Shown piece by piece: positions 57 to 8,233 of a stretch of 64,000 nucleotides of DNA (position 1 is its first letter; each line of letters starts with the position of its first letter). A model generated the notes under the pieces. That model searched no databases, was not told the origin of the DNA, and saw only the letters and a program-made list of their open reading frames with translations. Both the position numbers and the translations under genes were made by a program. The stretch lies in the NCBI RefSeq assembly GCF_000017505.1, contig NC_009675.1, forward strand, positions 4,592,501 through 4,656,500. Direction: 5' to 3'. Source of the stretch: Anaeromyxobacter sp. Fw109-5 (GTDB lineage: Bacteria > Myxococcota > Myxococcia > Myxococcales > Anaeromyxobacteraceae).

Positions 57-259
57 GCCGGGCGGCACCTCACCGTCGCCGCCGCCCCGCCTCCACGAAG
101 CTGTAGTAGCCCCCGGCCGCGACGATCACGTGATCGCGCGCGAGCACCCCGACCAGCTCCGCCCCGGCGCGCAGCCGCTCCGTGAGGTCGGCGTCGTCCG
201 GGCTGAGAAGGGTCGCCGCAATACGGAGAGCTACGCATCAGCGGCGTCATGCGGACCTC
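57..259. repeat. direct repeat, copy 1 (radC 3' end plus junction)
   Basis: This block is repeated in the same orientation at 1651-1858. Over the radC part (about 67-199) the two copies differ at only one base by eye. To the right they stay alignable but diverge, for example AGCGGCGTCATGCGGACCTC here against AGCGGCGTTATGCGGACCTC at 1835. The two copies flank the Rrf2-oxidoreductase gene pair, so recombination between them could delete or amplify that pair. The degenerate right side suggests this is the older copy. Confidence 0.8.
70..209 (-). pseudogene. radC 3' fragment (decayed)
   Basis: The minus strand encodes the last ~44 residues of a RadC protein, ending in SFVEAGRRRR and a TGA at 72-70. 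No RadC N-terminal part lies beside it. Relative to the intact genes there is a two-base loss just upstream of the DDADLT codons, which breaks the reading frame, so it cannot be expressed as RadC. It is almost identical to the fragment at 1664-1816 and is best read as a duplicated remnant of the same insertion junction. Confidence 0.8.
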
Positions 260-1663: not shown

Positions 1664-1816
1664 TCACCGTCGCCACCGCCCCGCCTCCACGAAGCTGTAG
1701 TAGCCCCCGGCCGCGACGATCACGTGATCGCGCGCGAGCACCCCGACCAGCTCCGCCCCGGCGCGCAGCCGCTCCGTGAGGTCGGCGTCGTCCGGGCTGG
1801 GGGAAGGATCGCCGCT
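1664..1816 (-). pseudogene. radC: 3' part of the split radC gene
   Basis: The minus strand encodes 50 residues starting SGDPSPSPDDADL and ending EAGRWRR plus TGA. It supplies the JAMM-motif Ser and Asp (S-x-x-D) and the C-terminal helix that the gene at 5052-5702 lacks. That gene runs to HNHPSG and then leaves radC homology exactly at AGCGGC (5168-5163); this piece begins at AGCGGC (1816-1811). Joining them over the shared six bases gives an uninterrupted RadC of about 228 residues with a canonical HPSGDPSPS segment. The two pieces are therefore halves of one gene split by 1817-5162. Confidence 0.88.
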
Positions 1817-1840
1817 TATGGAGAGCTCTCCATAAGCGGC
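1811..1840. repeat. 30-base perfect palindrome at the element's left edge
   Basis: GCCGCTTATGGAGAG is followed directly by its reverse complement with no spacer. The outer arm (1811-1816) belongs to the split radC gene; the inner arm ends in AGCGGC, which also begins the terminal inverted repeat. The copy near 215-246 is the same sequence decayed. It could be a cruciform target site, a footprint of an earlier insertion, or a bidirectional regulator site. Confidence 0.85.
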
Positions 1841-1863
1841 GTTATGCGGACCTCCGCGTTATG
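1835..1863 (+). repeat. left terminal inverted repeat
   Basis: Reads AGCGGCGTTATGCGGACC and eleven more bases. It is identical over 29 bases to the reverse complement of 5140-5168. It includes two copies of GCGTTATGCGG-like sequence and the short stem GCGGA-CC-TCCGC. It lies about 90 bases upstream of the GTG of the first intact radC, so it may also contain that gene's promoter or operator. Confidence 0.85.
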
Positions 1864-1953
1864 CGGAGCGCCCATCGGGATCGCGCGTGGGCGTGCGATT
1901 CGTGCGGTTCGCAGTCGGCATAATCGGGACGCAGCGGCAGTCGAGGTGCGGTC

Positions 1954-2622
1954 GTGAGCAAGCGATCCGCCGAGGCCGTCCATGAGCGCATGCAGCAGGT
2001 GGGACTGCGTGCGCTGTCGGACGCGGAGCTGCTCGCTATCCTGCTCGGGCCTACCGCAGGTGTGAGATCGATCCGCGACGCCGCCCAGCGGCTGCTCGAT
2101 GCGCTGCCGCTGTCCCAGATCGCCTGGGCCCCGCCGGAGGAGCTACAGCAGCAGCCCGGCATCGGCCCAGCGAGGGCGGCGGCAATCGCCGCCGCGTTCG
2201 AACTCGGCCGGCGCGGAGGATGGTCGCCGCCGAAGCGGGGCGAGCGGATTCTCGACCCTGCGCGGGTGTTCGAGCTGATGAGGCCCCTCGCGCACGCCGA
2301 GCGGGAGGAGTTCCACACCGTGCTACTCGACGTGCGCGGGCGGCTCATCAAGACAGTGAAGATCGCCGAGGGCTCGCTCACGCAGTGCCCGGTGTCGCCC
2401 CGAGACGCGCTGCGCGAGCCGGTCCGGAGCGGCGCGCACGGGGTGGTGTTTGTGCACAACCACCCGAGCGGCGGGGACCCGAGTCCGAGCGCGGACGACG
2501 CGGATCTCACAGAACGCCTGCGCGCCGCGGCCGAGCTTGTCGGCGTGCTCGCGCGGGATCACGTGATCGTGGCGGCGGGCGGCTACTATAGCTTCGTCGA
2601 GGCGGGGAGGTGGCGGCGTTGA
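1954..2622 (+). CDS. radC: RadC family protein (JAMM/MPN domain)
   Basis: A 222-residue RadC-type protein. The N-terminal half has the helix-hairpin-helix-like segment (PGIGPARAAAIAAAFELGRR, about residues 69-88). The C-terminal half is the MPN/JAMM domain with HNHPSGGDPSPSADD, which carries the HxH...SxxD metal ligands. Family members were once linked to DNA repair, but their function is unsettled and they are frequent on mobile elements. It starts with GTG at 1954, preceded by GAGGTG. It points inward from the left inverted repeat and is closely similar to the gene at 4387-5055, its mirror-image partner. All metal ligands are present, so it is likely active. Confidence 0.92.
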   Translation: MSKRSAEAVHERMQQVGLRALSDAELLAILLGPTAGVRSIRDAAQRLLDALPLSQIAWAPPEELQQQPGIGPARAAAIAAAFELGRRGGWSPPKRGERILDPARVFELMRPLAHAEREEFHTVLLDVRGRLIKTVKIAEGSLTQCPVSPRDALREPVRSGAHGVVFVHNHPSGGDPSPSADDADLTERLRAAAELVGVLARDHVIVAAGGYYSFVEAGRWRR

Positions 2623-2775
2623 ACGAGCTTCTCGGGCCCGCGACTGCGTCATTGCGCGCGCGGGCCCGAGCCGCGGCCCGTCCGTTAGGAGAATCCCGTC
2701 AGGGCCATCACGCCTGACCGACGCGGCCAGGCGTTCCTGAGGTGTCGACGTCAGCGGGCCTCGAGCCGTGACCGG

Positions 2776-3774
2776 TCACGGCGTGAAGCACTGGAGCAGC
2801 AGTTCGGAGCAGGTGTCGTCCGGCCCGGCTACGCACTGCCCGGACGGCCCCGACACGCCCGCCTGCGGCGGCTCACATGCGGTCGCTGAGTATCCGAGGA
2901 GGACGCACCCCGCGCACAGCGTAACGGTCGGGCACGAACGGTACGACCACCCGCAATCACCGCCCTCACCGCGCTTGCACGGGCCGGGGCCGCCGATGGT
3001 ACCGTCGGTGCACAGGTAGTTCGGCGCGCCCATGGCGGGACCGCAGGCATCGGGGGTGCACCCGTCCCAATACCTCGCACTCGCGTAGGCGGTGAAGTCT
3101 TGCCCGGTGACGTTCGCGCTCGTGATGCTGATGTCCGAGCTCGGCGGCGAGAACGCGTACGCACTGTCGCTCGGCGTCACCGTGTAGCTGCCATTCGCGA
3201 GACCACTGAAGCTGTAGTTCCCGTTTGCATCCGTAGTCGTGGAACGGGTCGCCGTCCCGGATAGCGAAATCGTGAAGCCCGCGCCTCCCCGCACTGTGCC
3301 CGAAATGCTGTACATCGCGCTTGCGTAGGCGGTGAAGTCTTGCCCGGTGACGTTCGCGCTCGTGATGCTGATGTCCGAGCTCGGCGGCGAGAACGCGTAC
3401 GCACTGTCGCTCGGCGTCACCGTGTAGCTGCCATTCGCGAGGCCACTGAAGCTGTAGTTCCCGTTTGCATCCGTAGTCGTGGAACGGGTCGCCGTCCCAG
3501 ATAGCGAAATCGTGAAGCCCGCGCCTCCCCGCACTGTGCCCGAAATGCTGTACATCGCTGCGGGACTCGGATCGGTCGCGTCGGCTCCGCAGCCCGTGAG
3601 GTCAAGAGAGCCCAGGCAAGCGAACAGTGCAGCGCACGCTCTGACATCCGCTCCGAAGATTCCGGTTAGGCGGGCCCGCGCACTCAAGAACGTTGGTTCC
3701 CGCGACGCGGCCGCCATGCTTCCCTGTGAAGAAGCGCGCGGCATGATCGTACCGTGAGAACCACTCATGGCCAC
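2776..3774 (-). CDS. repeat-containing putative lipoprotein
   Basis: Up to 332 residues. After a long basic N-terminal region comes a hydrophobic stretch (ACAALFACLGSLDLTGCG) with the lipobox LTGC near residue 63, so the mature protein is probably a lipoprotein and the true start may be one of the internal ATGs (such as the one before AAASREPTF). Two almost identical 80-residue repeats follow (SISGTVRGGAGFTISLSGTA ... VTGQDFTAYAS), each a carboxypeptidase-regulatory-like/SdrD-B-like beta sandwich. The C-terminal ~95 residues hold about ten cysteines (CTPDACG, CTDG, CKRGEGGDCG, CAGC) and are probably disulfide-bonded outside the cytoplasm. It is the only non-radC gene in the putative element. 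Confidence 0.75.
   Translation of the reverse strand: MAMSGSHGTIMPRASSQGSMAAASREPTFLSARARLTGIFGADVRACAALFACLGSLDLTGCGADATDPSPAAMYSISGTVRGGAGFTISLSGTATRSTTTDANGNYSFSGLANGSYTVTPSDSAYAFSPPSSDISITSANVTGQDFTAYASAMYSISGTVRGGAGFTISLSGTATRSTTTDANGNYSFSGLANGSYTVTPSDSAYAFSPPSSDISITSANVTGQDFTAYASARYWDGCTPDACGPAMGAPNYLCTDGTIGGPGPCKRGEGGDCGWSYRSCPTVTLCAGCVLLGYSATACEPPQAGVSGPSGQCVAGPDDTCSELLLQCFTP
3083..3558 (-). repeat. two 236-base tandem repeats (period 240)
   Basis: Units 3083-3318 and 3323-3558 differ at only about two positions by eye (for example GAGACC/GAGGCC and CCCGG/CCCAG). They encode the two 80-residue domains of the lipoprotein. Such near-identity at synonymous sites implies a recent duplication or gene conversion. 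Confidence 0.92.
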
Positions 3775-4386
3775 ATCCTCCGCTCTTCAGAGCACTGCGA
3801 TCATGACGAAAAGTGAATACGCATGTCAACGGGTGGGCGGCCGGCCTGCTCCGGCATACAGCGTCGACGGGGCCGCATCTCGATGTAGGGATGTGGTGCC
3901 GCTGATCCTGTATGAGTCATCCCCCCCCCGGCGGCCGCCGGGACAGCTATATTATGCCCCCTTCATCCACACTCACCTCCCTCGGCTTCCCACACGGTGA
4001 ATAGGCGCAGGAGATCGGGCGTGGGCGAGACGGTGGACCCACGCCTCGCGCTTCCAGCAGATACCGTGCGTTGCGCGCTCCTCATCGCATCCCATCCGTG
4101 CGGTGATGGCGCAGACTTCAGGCCGCCGCTGGTGCCGCTCATCACCGCAACGGTGCGGCGCGGCGAGGCAGCGCCCGCGGAAGGGGCCCCTCACCCCCCC
4201 GGCGTCCCTGTCGCTCCTCGTGGAGCGCGCCCGAGTCTCCACGCGAGGGAGCTCGGCGCTGGGATAAAGAGCGTGGGGCCGGTCGGCGACGTGGCGCCCC
4301 TTTCAGCGCGCCTCCGCGCACCTCCTCGACGGCAAGGGGATGCAGGCGATCAGATGACGCAGAAGCCACCATTGCCGCCTGCGATG
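3775..4386. other. intergenic stretch without a supported gene
   Basis: 612 bases between the divergent 5' end of the lipoprotein gene and the 3' end of the second radC. Short open frames occur on both strands but none has a convincing ribosome site or recognisable motif. Visible structure: CCCCCCCCGGCGGCCGCCGG near 3927 and a nine-base inverted pair GCGGTGATG / CATCACCGC around 4100-4148. The part next to 3775 must hold the lipoprotein promoter. Confidence 0.6.
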
Positions 4387-5055
4387 TCACCTCCTCCAGC
4401 GCCCCGCCTCGACGAAGCTGTAGTACCCGCTCGCCGCCACGATCACGTGGTCCCGCGCGAGCACGCCCACGAGGTCTGCGGCGGCCCGTAGCCGATCCGT
4501 GAGATCCGCGTCGTCTGCGCTCGGGCTCGGGTCCCCGCTGCTCGGGTGGTTGTGCACGAAGACGACGCCGTGGGCGCCGATCCGTACCGGCTCGCGCAGC
4601 GCGTCCCGCGGCGACACGGGGCACTGCGTGAGCGAGCCCTCGGCGATCTTTACGGTCTTGATGAGGCGCCCCCGGACGTCGAGCAGGACCGTGTGGAACT
4701 CCTCGCGCTCCGCGTGGGCGAGCGGCCGCATCAGCTCGTACACCCGCGCCGGATCGAGCACGCGCTCGCCGCGCTTCGGCGGAGCCCACGCCCCGCGGCG
4801 CCCGATCTCGAAGGCGGCGGCGATCGCGGCGGCGCGCGCCGGCCCGATGCCCGGATGCTGGCGGATCTCGTCCGCCGACGCCCAGGCGAGCTGCGACAGC
4901 GGGACCGCGTCGAGGAGCCGCTGCGCGGCGTCGCGTGTCGAGTTCACGCCTGCAGTCGGCCCGAGCAGGATCGTGAGCAGCTCCACGTCCGCGAGCGCGC
5001 GGACGCCGAGCTGCTCCATCCGCTCGTGGCACGCCAGGGCAGGTCGCCGGCTCAC
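4387..5055 (-). CDS. radC: RadC family protein (JAMM/MPN domain), second copy
   Basis: A 222-residue protein closely matching the one at 1954-2622 throughout. It has the HhH-like segment (PGIGPARAAAIAAAFEIGRR) and the metal motif HNHPSSGDPSPSADD, in which Ser replaces the usual Gly after PS. It starts with GTG at 5055, which overlaps the stop of the truncated radC (TGA 5054-5052), preceded by GAGGTGGCGTC. It reads inward from the right inverted repeat and so mirrors the first copy. The two leaders are also homologous. Confidence 0.92.
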   Translation of the reverse strand: MSRRPALACHERMEQLGVRALADVELLTILLGPTAGVNSTRDAAQRLLDAVPLSQLAWASADEIRQHPGIGPARAAAIAAAFEIGRRGAWAPPKRGERVLDPARVYELMRPLAHAEREEFHTVLLDVRGRLIKTVKIAEGSLTQCPVSPRDALREPVRIGAHGVVFVHNHPSSGDPSPSADDADLTDRLRAAADLVGVLARDHVIVAASGYYSFVEAGRWRR

Positions 5056-5702
5056 GACGCCACCTCGGCACCGGCGAGATTATGCGGACGATCCGACGCG
5101 GCGATCTCACGCCAGAGCGCGATCGCGGAGGCCGCTGCACATAACGCGGAGGTCCGCATAACGCCGCTCGGGTGGTTGTGCACGAACACGACGCCGTGCG
5201 CTCCCTCCCGCACCGCCGGCCGGAGCGCGTCGCGCGGCGAGACGGGGCACTGCGAGAGCGAGCCCTCCGCGACCTGGACGGCGCGCAGGAGGCGCCCGCG
5301 CACGTCGAGCAGCACGACGTGGAAGCCCTCGCGCTCCGCGTGGGCGGCGTGGCGGAGCAGCTCGGACACGCGGCGCGGGTCGAGGCAGCGCTCCCCGCGC
5401 CGCGGGGGCGACCACGCCGCGCGCCTGCCGAGCTCGAAGGCCGCCGCGATCGCGGCCGCCCGCGCGATCCCCACGCCCGGCGCGCTCGCGATCGCGTCGG
5501 GCGGCGCCCAGGCCAGCTCCGCCAGCGGGATCGCCTCGAGGAGCGCCAGCGCCGCCGCGCGCGGGGACAGGCGGGACGAGCCGGCGCCGAGCAGGAGCGC
5601 CACCAGGTCCGCGTCGGAGAGCGCCCGCGGTCCGTCGGAGAGGAGCCGCGCCCGCGGGCGGTCGTGGGCGGGAGCGGCCGTGTCGGAGACGATGGGCGGC
5701 AT
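5052..5702 (-). pseudogene. radC: 5' part of the split radC gene
   Basis: From the ATG at 5702 this encodes a normal RadC N-terminal half (LSDADLVALLLGAG, the HhH-like PGVGIARAAAIAAAFELGRR) and the MPN domain as far as HNHPSG. Then it runs into foreign sequence (VMRTSALCAAASAIALWREI...) up to a stop at 5052 that overlaps the next radC start. The metal-binding S-x-x-D and the last ~50 residues are missing, so the product should be inactive as a metalloprotein. The missing part is at 1664-1816. It is more diverged from the other two radC genes than they are from each other, which fits a host gene hit by a radC-carrying element. A TTG at 5720 is an alternative start. Confidence 0.85.
5140..5168 (-). 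repeat. right terminal inverted repeat
   Basis: The exact 29-base reverse complement of 1835-1863. Its outer six bases (GCCGCT on the plus strand) are the first bases of radC sequence in the split gene, so the repeat ends either at 5162 (with a six-base target duplication) or at 5168. Confidence 0.85.
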
Positions 5703-5964
5703 GCGGCGCCGCCTCAGCAACGGGTGTGCCTCCGCCAGATCCGAGCGGGGTGAGCAGGCGTTCAGGTGGAGGGGACGCGCCGCGACCTGGACCGGGCGCG
5801 TCGCGACCGCTCCTCGAGGTGGGGCGCGGATCCGGGCGTCCGGGCACGCTCCTCCTCACGCCCTCACCCGGGAGCCGGACGGAGAGCGGATTTGCGCTTA
5901 TAGTGCTGGCCTCGCTCGATGCCTGGCCGTTGGCGCGTCCACGGCCACGCCCGCAGAGGTGTTC

Positions 5965-7493: not shown

Positions 7494-8096
7494 CTAACCG
7501 GCGTCCATCGTCTGCGGGCCCTGCTTCACCAGCTCCGCCTCGATCTCGACCTTCACCTCGTCGCCGACCACCGGCCCGGCCTCGACCATCTTGTTCCAGT
7601 CGAGGCCGAAGTCCTTGCGGTTGAGCGTGGTCCGCGCGGCGATGCCGCGGCGGGAGTTGCCCTGCATGTCGACGATCGCCGGGGTCGGCCCCTCGACGTC
7701 GAGCACCACCGGCTTCGTCACGCCGTTCATGGTGAGGTCCCCCTTCACCTTGAGCTTCCCCCGGCCCGCCTTCTCGACCTTGGTGGACCTGAAGGTGATC
7801 TTCGGGTTTTTCTCGGCGTCGAAGAAGTCGGGCGAGCGCAGGTGGTCGTCGCGCTTCTGCTCGCGGGTGTTGACGCTGGCGGTCTCGATCACCGCCTCGA
7901 CGCTCGACCTCGTGGGGTCCTTCTCGTCGAGCTTCACCGTGCCGGCCGTCTTGCCGAACTCGCCGCGCACGCTCGAGATCACCATGTGCCGCACCGTGAA
8001 GCTCGCGTGCGTGTGGCTGGGATCGATGGTCCAGGTGCTCGCCTGCGCGAGCGCGAGGCCCGGCAGGAGCGCCAGGGAGAGGAGAAGCCGCTTCAT
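7494..8096 (-). CDS. YceI family periplasmic protein
   Basis: 200 residues with a clear signal peptide (MKRLLLSLALLPGLALAQA) followed by the YceI lipocalin-like barrel: STWTIDPSHTHASFTVRHM at the start of the mature chain, FFDAEKNPKITFRST in the middle, and the GIAARTTLNRKDFGLDWN strand near the end. YceI proteins bind isoprenoid or similar amphiphiles in the periplasm. The ATG at 8096 follows GGAGCACTCCTG; an upstream extension is rejected because the signal peptide starts exactly here. No operon partner is evident. Confidence 0.93.
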   Translation of the reverse strand: MKRLLLSLALLPGLALAQASTWTIDPSHTHASFTVRHMVISSVRGEFGKTAGTVKLDEKDPTRSSVEAVIETASVNTREQKRDDHLRSPDFFDAEKNPKITFRSTKVEKAGRGKLKVKGDLTMNGVTKPVVLDVEGPTPAIVDMQGNSRRGIAARTTLNRKDFGLDWNKMVEAGPVVGDEVKVEIEAELVKQGPQTMDAG

Positions 8097-8233
8097 CAGG
8101 AGTGCTCCTTTCGTGCTGCGGAACCGCCGAAGGCGATCGAGAGGAGGCGGCCGTGCTCGGCGGAGGCCTGGATGTAACGCCCGACTGACCCGGATCAAGC
8201 GCACGGGCGAGCCCGGATGGGGGGCAGGCGCGG

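Follow-up and report, generated by a model that had tools for sequence, protein, structure and literature searches.

A radC-carrying element within radC of Anaeromyxobacter sp. Fw109-5, probably a non-autonomous derivative of a RIT with coupled replacement copies of its target gene

The window considered here is a 64,000-nucleotide stretch of the chromosome of Anaeromyxobacter sp. Fw109-5 (genome G000), and all coordinates below are positions within it. It contains a discrete 3.3-kb element (1817–5162) inside a chromosomal radC gene, at the codon HNHPSG/ (a slash marks the breakpoint throughout). The element is flanked by the hexamer GCCGCT, present twice, and bears a 29-bp perfect inverted repeat, AGCGGCGTTATGCGGACCTCCGCGTTATG (1835–1863 and 5140–5168), whose similarity extends to 65 bp at 85%. 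Inward of these ends lie inverted radC arms of 681 bp (1942–2622 and 4387–5067, 83% identity), belonging to two intact genes, radC1 and radC2, that each encode 222 aa with Pfam RadC and UPF0758_N domains. A single predicted protein gene is situated between them. The features of the locus, including the remains of a second radC copy at 57–259, are as follows.

57–205, minus strand: relic, 3′ end of the first tandem copy of the host gene radC-A; 98% identical to 1651–1799
206–259, minus strand: relic of a core palindrome plus element end, now decayed, GCCGCAATACGGAGAGCTACGCATCAGCGGCGTCATGCGGACC; 84% repeat match
1664–1816, minus strand: 3′ half of the split host radC-A; intact radC-A is syntenic in relatives
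1811–1816: crossover hexamer GCCGCT, C side, defined by comparison with empty sites and other junctions
1817–1834: palindromic core TATGGAGAGCTCTCCATA, 18 bp, present on this side only; equivalent cores stand at all C-side junctions of relatives
1835–1953, plus strand: X end, with hexamer AGCGGC, GTTATGCGG, a second GTTATGCGG 17 bp on and an inverted CATAAT at 1919, as in the RIT-type ends of loci L080, L083 and L107; it includes an open frame of 38 codons whose TGA lies over the radC1 start
1954–2622, plus strand: radC1, element-borne, GTG start overlapping the TGA (GTGA); dN/dS 0.056 against radC1 of genome G006
2776–3774, minus strand: cargo gene with two CarboxypepD_reg/SdrD_B-like repeats
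4387–5055, minus strand: radC2, element-borne, GTG start over the stop of the read-through ORF; dN/dS 0.114 against radC2 of G006
5056–5162, minus strand: Y end, built like X; the frame of the broken host radC continues through it for 36 codons to a TGA over the radC2 start
5163–5168: crossover hexamer GCCGCT (AGCGGC in the radC sense), N side, host
5163–5720, minus strand: 5′ half of the split host radC-A, its ORF continuing to 5052 through the Y end

Within the cargo gene, a 240-bp direct repeat (3071–3550, 98% identity) corresponds to two carboxypeptidase-regulatory-like domains. A preliminary description of this DNA had recognized a radC-bearing unit with inverted ends that had entered a radC at the HPSG codons, and much of it is borne out: its borders are exact to the base, the homology of the 29-base ends does run on into a mirror-image radC pair, and the element contains neither the transposase that was reported missing nor any recombinase gene. 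The joined RadC of about 228 residues that it proposed is likewise intact and in frame (...HNHPSG/DPSPSPDD...), but its join from 5163 to 1816 counts the hexamer GCCGCT twice, the correct fusion counting it once. The one-sided palindromic core and the degenerate second radC 3′ end with its element end (57–259) were absent from that account.

Both halves of the split gene derive from one host radC-A. This follows from three observations: against radC1, the split gene and the intact host-type radCs of relatives show the same identities (~68% in the N half and 88–94% in the C half); the split gene clusters with host radC-A genes in an N-half tree (97/97); and the window locus is syntenic with an intact radC-A in 12 relatives. 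A chimaera of two parental radCs is rejected, as the intact host radC-A genes display the same two-half pattern of identity. The preliminary description had held that an insertion would be cast into doubt if all relatives were split with no empty site, or if the halves came from different parental radCs, and neither situation is encountered. The element-borne radCs fall outside the host radC-A group of the N-half tree, in a set supported 98/96 that also includes some radCs from another genomic context. Four radCs of the element clade (L035, L065, L063 and L039, of genomes G001, G005, G010 and G011, respectively) stand in another, shared and conserved context; no RIT ends were found near them, and the group possibly belongs to a different mobile element.

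In the relic at 57–259 the repeated radC 3′ end borders on what is left of a core and X end. Because a relative (G003, L059) possesses two radC-A copies either side of the same epimerase gene, this tract is best explained by an older insertion that hit a tandem radC copy at the same codon and left a scar. A further decayed radC fragment, with an internal deletion, lies elsewhere in the genome (G000:C1:3841040; L070, ~8041–8196).

Related genomes were searched with radC1. In several of them N-halves end at residue 173 and C-halves start at 172–174, and the same radC codon is occupied in A. soli SG29 (G006), A. oryzisoli SG63 (G004) and a groundwater MAG (G009) by elements that are all larger than the window copy (~8.3, ~5.4 and ~21 kb, respectively). 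Each of these three elements harbours three adjacent tyrosine recombinase genes with Phage_integrase domains (L054, L053 and L052, respectively), whose products span 316–433 aa (430, 316 and ~339 aa in L054) and include no large TnpB. In comparisons with plasmid RITs (e.g. pMLa, MAFF303099), identity is 36–40% for RitB and 45–48% for RitC, whilst RitA is ~31–33% identical to known RITs. The ends share one signature with these plasmid trios, in which TTATG is repeated after 17 bp and an inverted CATAAT lies deeper inside; the layout is found in L080, L083 and L107. The 29-bp perfect inverted repeat and 18-bp core of the window element also agree with the terminal inverted repeats of ~28–34 bp with a palindrome that characterize RITs. 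Three adjacent, overlapping ritA-ritB-ritC genes are found neither in the window element nor in its complete genome, where a search for RitB relatives gave no close match and no trio; recombinase homology is thus a property of the sister trios and is not applicable to the window copy. Since the window element lacks the trio and none is left in the genome, it is classed, on its sequence, as a non-autonomous RIT derivative and not as a full RIT, and it is probably stranded. The 21-kb element of G009 (L051/L052) is a radC-inserted RIT with defence-island cargo, comprising type I R-M genes and dGTPase-like, PDC-S26 family, SIR2-like (ThsA-like) and DUF6791-ThiF genes.

The manner of insertion is most clearly seen at radC-B, a second host paralogue. 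The best empty site is the intact radC-B of G003 (L060), whose flanks are 99.78% identical to those of the G006 insertion over 6.0 kb on each side. The empty gene reads CACCCA-AGTTCC-GACCC, whereas the occupied gene reads CACCCA-AGTTCC/GTTATGCGG(Y) on the N side and (X)CCGCATAAC-GCCGCT-TATGCGTAGCTACGCGTA-ACTGGA/GACCC on the C side. Insertion is therefore precise, and without target duplication; the N side keeps the host hexamer and the C side gains the core plus a foreign hexamer, an exchange of 6 bp in radC of the kind that characterizes Tn554. The preliminary description had called for empty sites, for copies of the 29-base end elsewhere and for a target duplication to be defined from the ends. 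Intact sites are indeed found in relatives and the junction is precise at GCCGCT; a whole-genome search returned no exact copies of the end in the remainder of its own genome, and no duplication is formed. A scan of the genome collection with the junction pattern CAYAAYCAYCC-N7-GTTATGCG gave seven matches, four of which lie in the known Anaeromyxobacteraceae; the other three are chance matches outside radC.

The radC-A junction of G006 reads (Y)-TCCAGT-TACGCGTAGCTACGCATA-ACCGGC/GACCC, with AGCGGC on the N side. When reversed, the core at radC-B of the same genome reads TCCAGT-TACGCGTAGCTACGCATA-AGCGGC, which matches the radC-A core joined to the hexamer from the N side of radC-A. This is the pattern expected for a radC-B copy derived from the radC-A copy. 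It may be inferred that the former arose from the latter via a circle which took the N-side hexamer. Both orientations of insertion occur: in G006, X adjoins one N-half (L055) and Y a second (L057), the contigs of this draft genome being paired by synteny, whilst the N-half in the window is fused to Y. Flank synteny indicates that the window and G006 insertions in radC-A are opposite. Contig C65 of G006 (L054, 8281 bp) extends from one element border to the other, as would be seen if the assembler had merged two near-identical copies. The 12 kb around radC-B (L060 versus L056/L057) is 99.8% identical between G003 and G006, compared with 91% for the radC-A flank, which is read here as a recent between-species exchange at the locus.

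These junctions also bear on the proposal, contained in the preliminary description, of a homology-driven insertion, in which recombination between homologous radC sequences brought in a radC-bearing fragment. Although element and target do have radC homology in common, the probability of such an origin is negligible: the junctions that already contradict it are site-specific, the same hexamer being used in two radC paralogues and in four genomes, the breakpoints carry sequence that is not radC (core and ends), and an empty site exists with 99.8% identical flanks.

The last base of the hexamer closes a codon, so that the broken radC is always read into the element in a single frame (VMRTSALC...). 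At Y this frame stays open for 36 codons and at X for 38, up to a TGA within GTGA, whose GTG is the start of radC2 (Y) or radC1 (X); GAGG stands just upstream of both starts. Both ends thus display the sequence pattern of translational coupling, by which a replacement copy would be supplied in either orientation. The ends of G006 differ by 10 and 15 substitutions, and length, frame and overlap are unchanged. By our own estimate from base composition, an open frame with overlap would arise by chance with a probability of ~0.15 per end, the two ends being homologous and hence not independent.

G006 has a separate orthologue of radC1 and of radC2, and the mirror pair is shared by the window and G006 elements despite their different cargo and opposite orientation. 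Across the mirror-type element radCs and a copy in genome G016, dN/dS is 0.056–0.129, and the element-borne radCs are under purifying selection. In the complete window genome the two element-borne copies are the only intact radCs, the host gene being split, the tandem copy a relic and a third piece a decayed fragment; in G006, too, intact radCs occur only on the element. In G016 (L062, 7822–8600), an element-type radC occupies the native locus, after a 39-codon host radC remnant ending in ATGA, and neither element ends nor a trio were found nearby. This locus looks like a finished takeover of the host radC. The replacement copies of these elements, being intact and under selection, may provide RadC function. 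Coupling is not general in the family, because the G004 and G009 elements do not place their radC behind the N-half; coupled mirror pairs therefore characterize one subtype of the radC-carrying elements.

Such uncoupled copies could suggest an ordinary RIT in which radC is an accidental passenger, captured through element–target recombination for which a radC target offers frequent chances, and in which the coupling is coincidental. This explanation is unlikely, since both radCs have been kept (dN/dS 0.06–0.13) though the trio is lost, the mirror pair persists in two elements that differ in cargo and orientation, the overlaps are present at both ends and, in two genomes, the only intact radCs are those of the element. 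A different role, that of an accessory recombination factor in element mobility, is in line with the presence of radC in all three trio-bearing elements, which form one RitB clade (support 100/100), and resembles the undescribed class, with RadC taking part in mobility, that was suggested in the preliminary description. That suggestion is left without support by the intact relatives, which have a RIT trio of tyrosine recombinases. RIT matches occur in 16 of 195 Myxococcota genomes, and in the other RIT loci fetched from this phylum no radC was present in the flanks examined, several contigs being short; nor was one found in the fetched flanks of plasmid RITs. Moreover, the surroundings of the domesticated G016 copy, which occupies the native locus, revealed neither ends nor a trio, and RIT and Tn554 elements that enter radC elsewhere are described with no mention of a carried radC (PMC2864759, PMC3788773). 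A role for RadC in mobility is accordingly considered very improbable.

Every radC carried by these elements is longer by one codon, located precisely at the attachment hexamer (HNHPSSGDPSPS or HNHPSGGDPSPS), and the same holds for the copy in G016. Their motif is H-x-H-x8-S-x2-D, whereas the remaining RadCs that were compared, like 2QLC, a RadC homologue of solved structure, have x7; their half-sites are spaced by 9 bp versus 6 bp. In genomes with element remains, six of seven x7 copies had been hit versus none of nine x8 copies (Fisher p = 0.0009), although the genomes were chosen for having hits and the copies are not independent, a single inherited change probably accounting for the extra codon. 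The additional codon probably makes the element-borne radCs poor targets, and it can be hypothesized that they are immune to further insertion; the x8 spacing of the JAMM motif might also alter RadC activity. The radC-B of G009 (L041) is an unoccupied host radC with an extra codon at the attachment hexamer, the sole host x8 copy, which could be an excision scar.

Taken together, the preferred reading, to which a probability of about 80% is assigned, is that the insert descends from a RIT that targets radC, is itself non-autonomous and has replacement radCs coupled in either orientation. The recombinase trio, formerly supplied by the element itself or in trans, would act on a circular form, recombining it with the hexamer (6 bp) that lies within the HNHPSG codons of a host radC and leaving the palindromic core and donor hexamer on the C side and the host hexamer on the N side. 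The broken radC would then be read into the element end, which stays open for 36–38 codons up to a TGA overlapping the GTG of an element radC with its own GAGG, such that, whichever way the element lies, a replacement RadC would be made through host transcription and translational coupling. With their added codon at the site of the hexamer, the element-borne radCs would probably be poor targets. More tentatively, and with slightly less than even odds, the element may render its insertion harmless either way through its mirror coupled copies and a one-codon change giving immunity, and its replacement gene may later become the host's only copy, as in G016.

Some integrative elements are known to rebuild their target gene, such as SXT in prfC and islands in tRNA genes, and restore one gene end through the att overlap. 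As in those cases, insertion into a useful gene would be tolerable here through restored function, but the window element supplies a whole second gene, from both ends. RIT insertion in radC is already known and is described as disrupting the gene (PMC2864759, PMC3414803). Examples of RITs are ritA2B2C2 of Cupriavidus metallidurans CH34, in radC of CMGI-2, that of GI3 of Bordetella petrii and that of pMLa of MAFF303099, a Mesorhizobium strain listed with RITs (PMC3414803). The window relatives share with RITs the order, size and overlap of the trio genes, the 28–34 bp inverted ends with a palindrome and the radC insertion (PMC3414803, PMC2864759, PMC10214605). However, published RITs are said to inactivate radC, a carried radC being unmentioned, whereas one or two copies are carried here, and the window copy differs further in having no trio. 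Transposition has not been demonstrated for any RIT, nor integration so far reproduced in the laboratory (PMC10214605); the present family offers empty sites and two near-identical copies in G006. Members of the Tn554 family (Tn554, Tn558, Tn6188), whose insertion at a conserved radC site is also described as disruptive (PMC3788773), likewise use tyrosine recombinases and form 6-bp junction sequences without target duplication (PMC3788773, PMC10214605). They differ in encoding TnpA, a large TnpB and TnpC, a set not found in the sister elements with their three recombinases of similar size, and in being Firmicutes elements with resistance cargo and no mention of a carried radC. Hexamer exchange is on record for Tn554 and also for GInts and strand-biased circularizing elements (SE) (PMC10214605, PMC5385486). 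The latter two similarly employ several tyrosine recombinases and a 6-nt staggered exchange that leaves the donor hexamer at one junction (PMC5385486, PMC10214605), but have GinABCD or IntA/Tfp/IntB/Srap gene sets and other targets, with no replacement gene mentioned in the parts of these sources consulted. A RIT with a carried radC, mirror replacement copies or an altered carried att site was not found in the open-access literature, which does not include Ricker et al. 2013, and the radC replacement, mirror pairing and possible immunity appear to be new.

RITs and Tn554-like transposons repeatedly strike radC, and the family described here points to takeover of the target instead of its destruction, with an element radC that would be able to displace the host's own gene over evolution. 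Its junctions also provide a base-level prediction for RIT integration, a 6-bp exchange in which the donor hexamer is carried along, and define a short att site that is directly testable.
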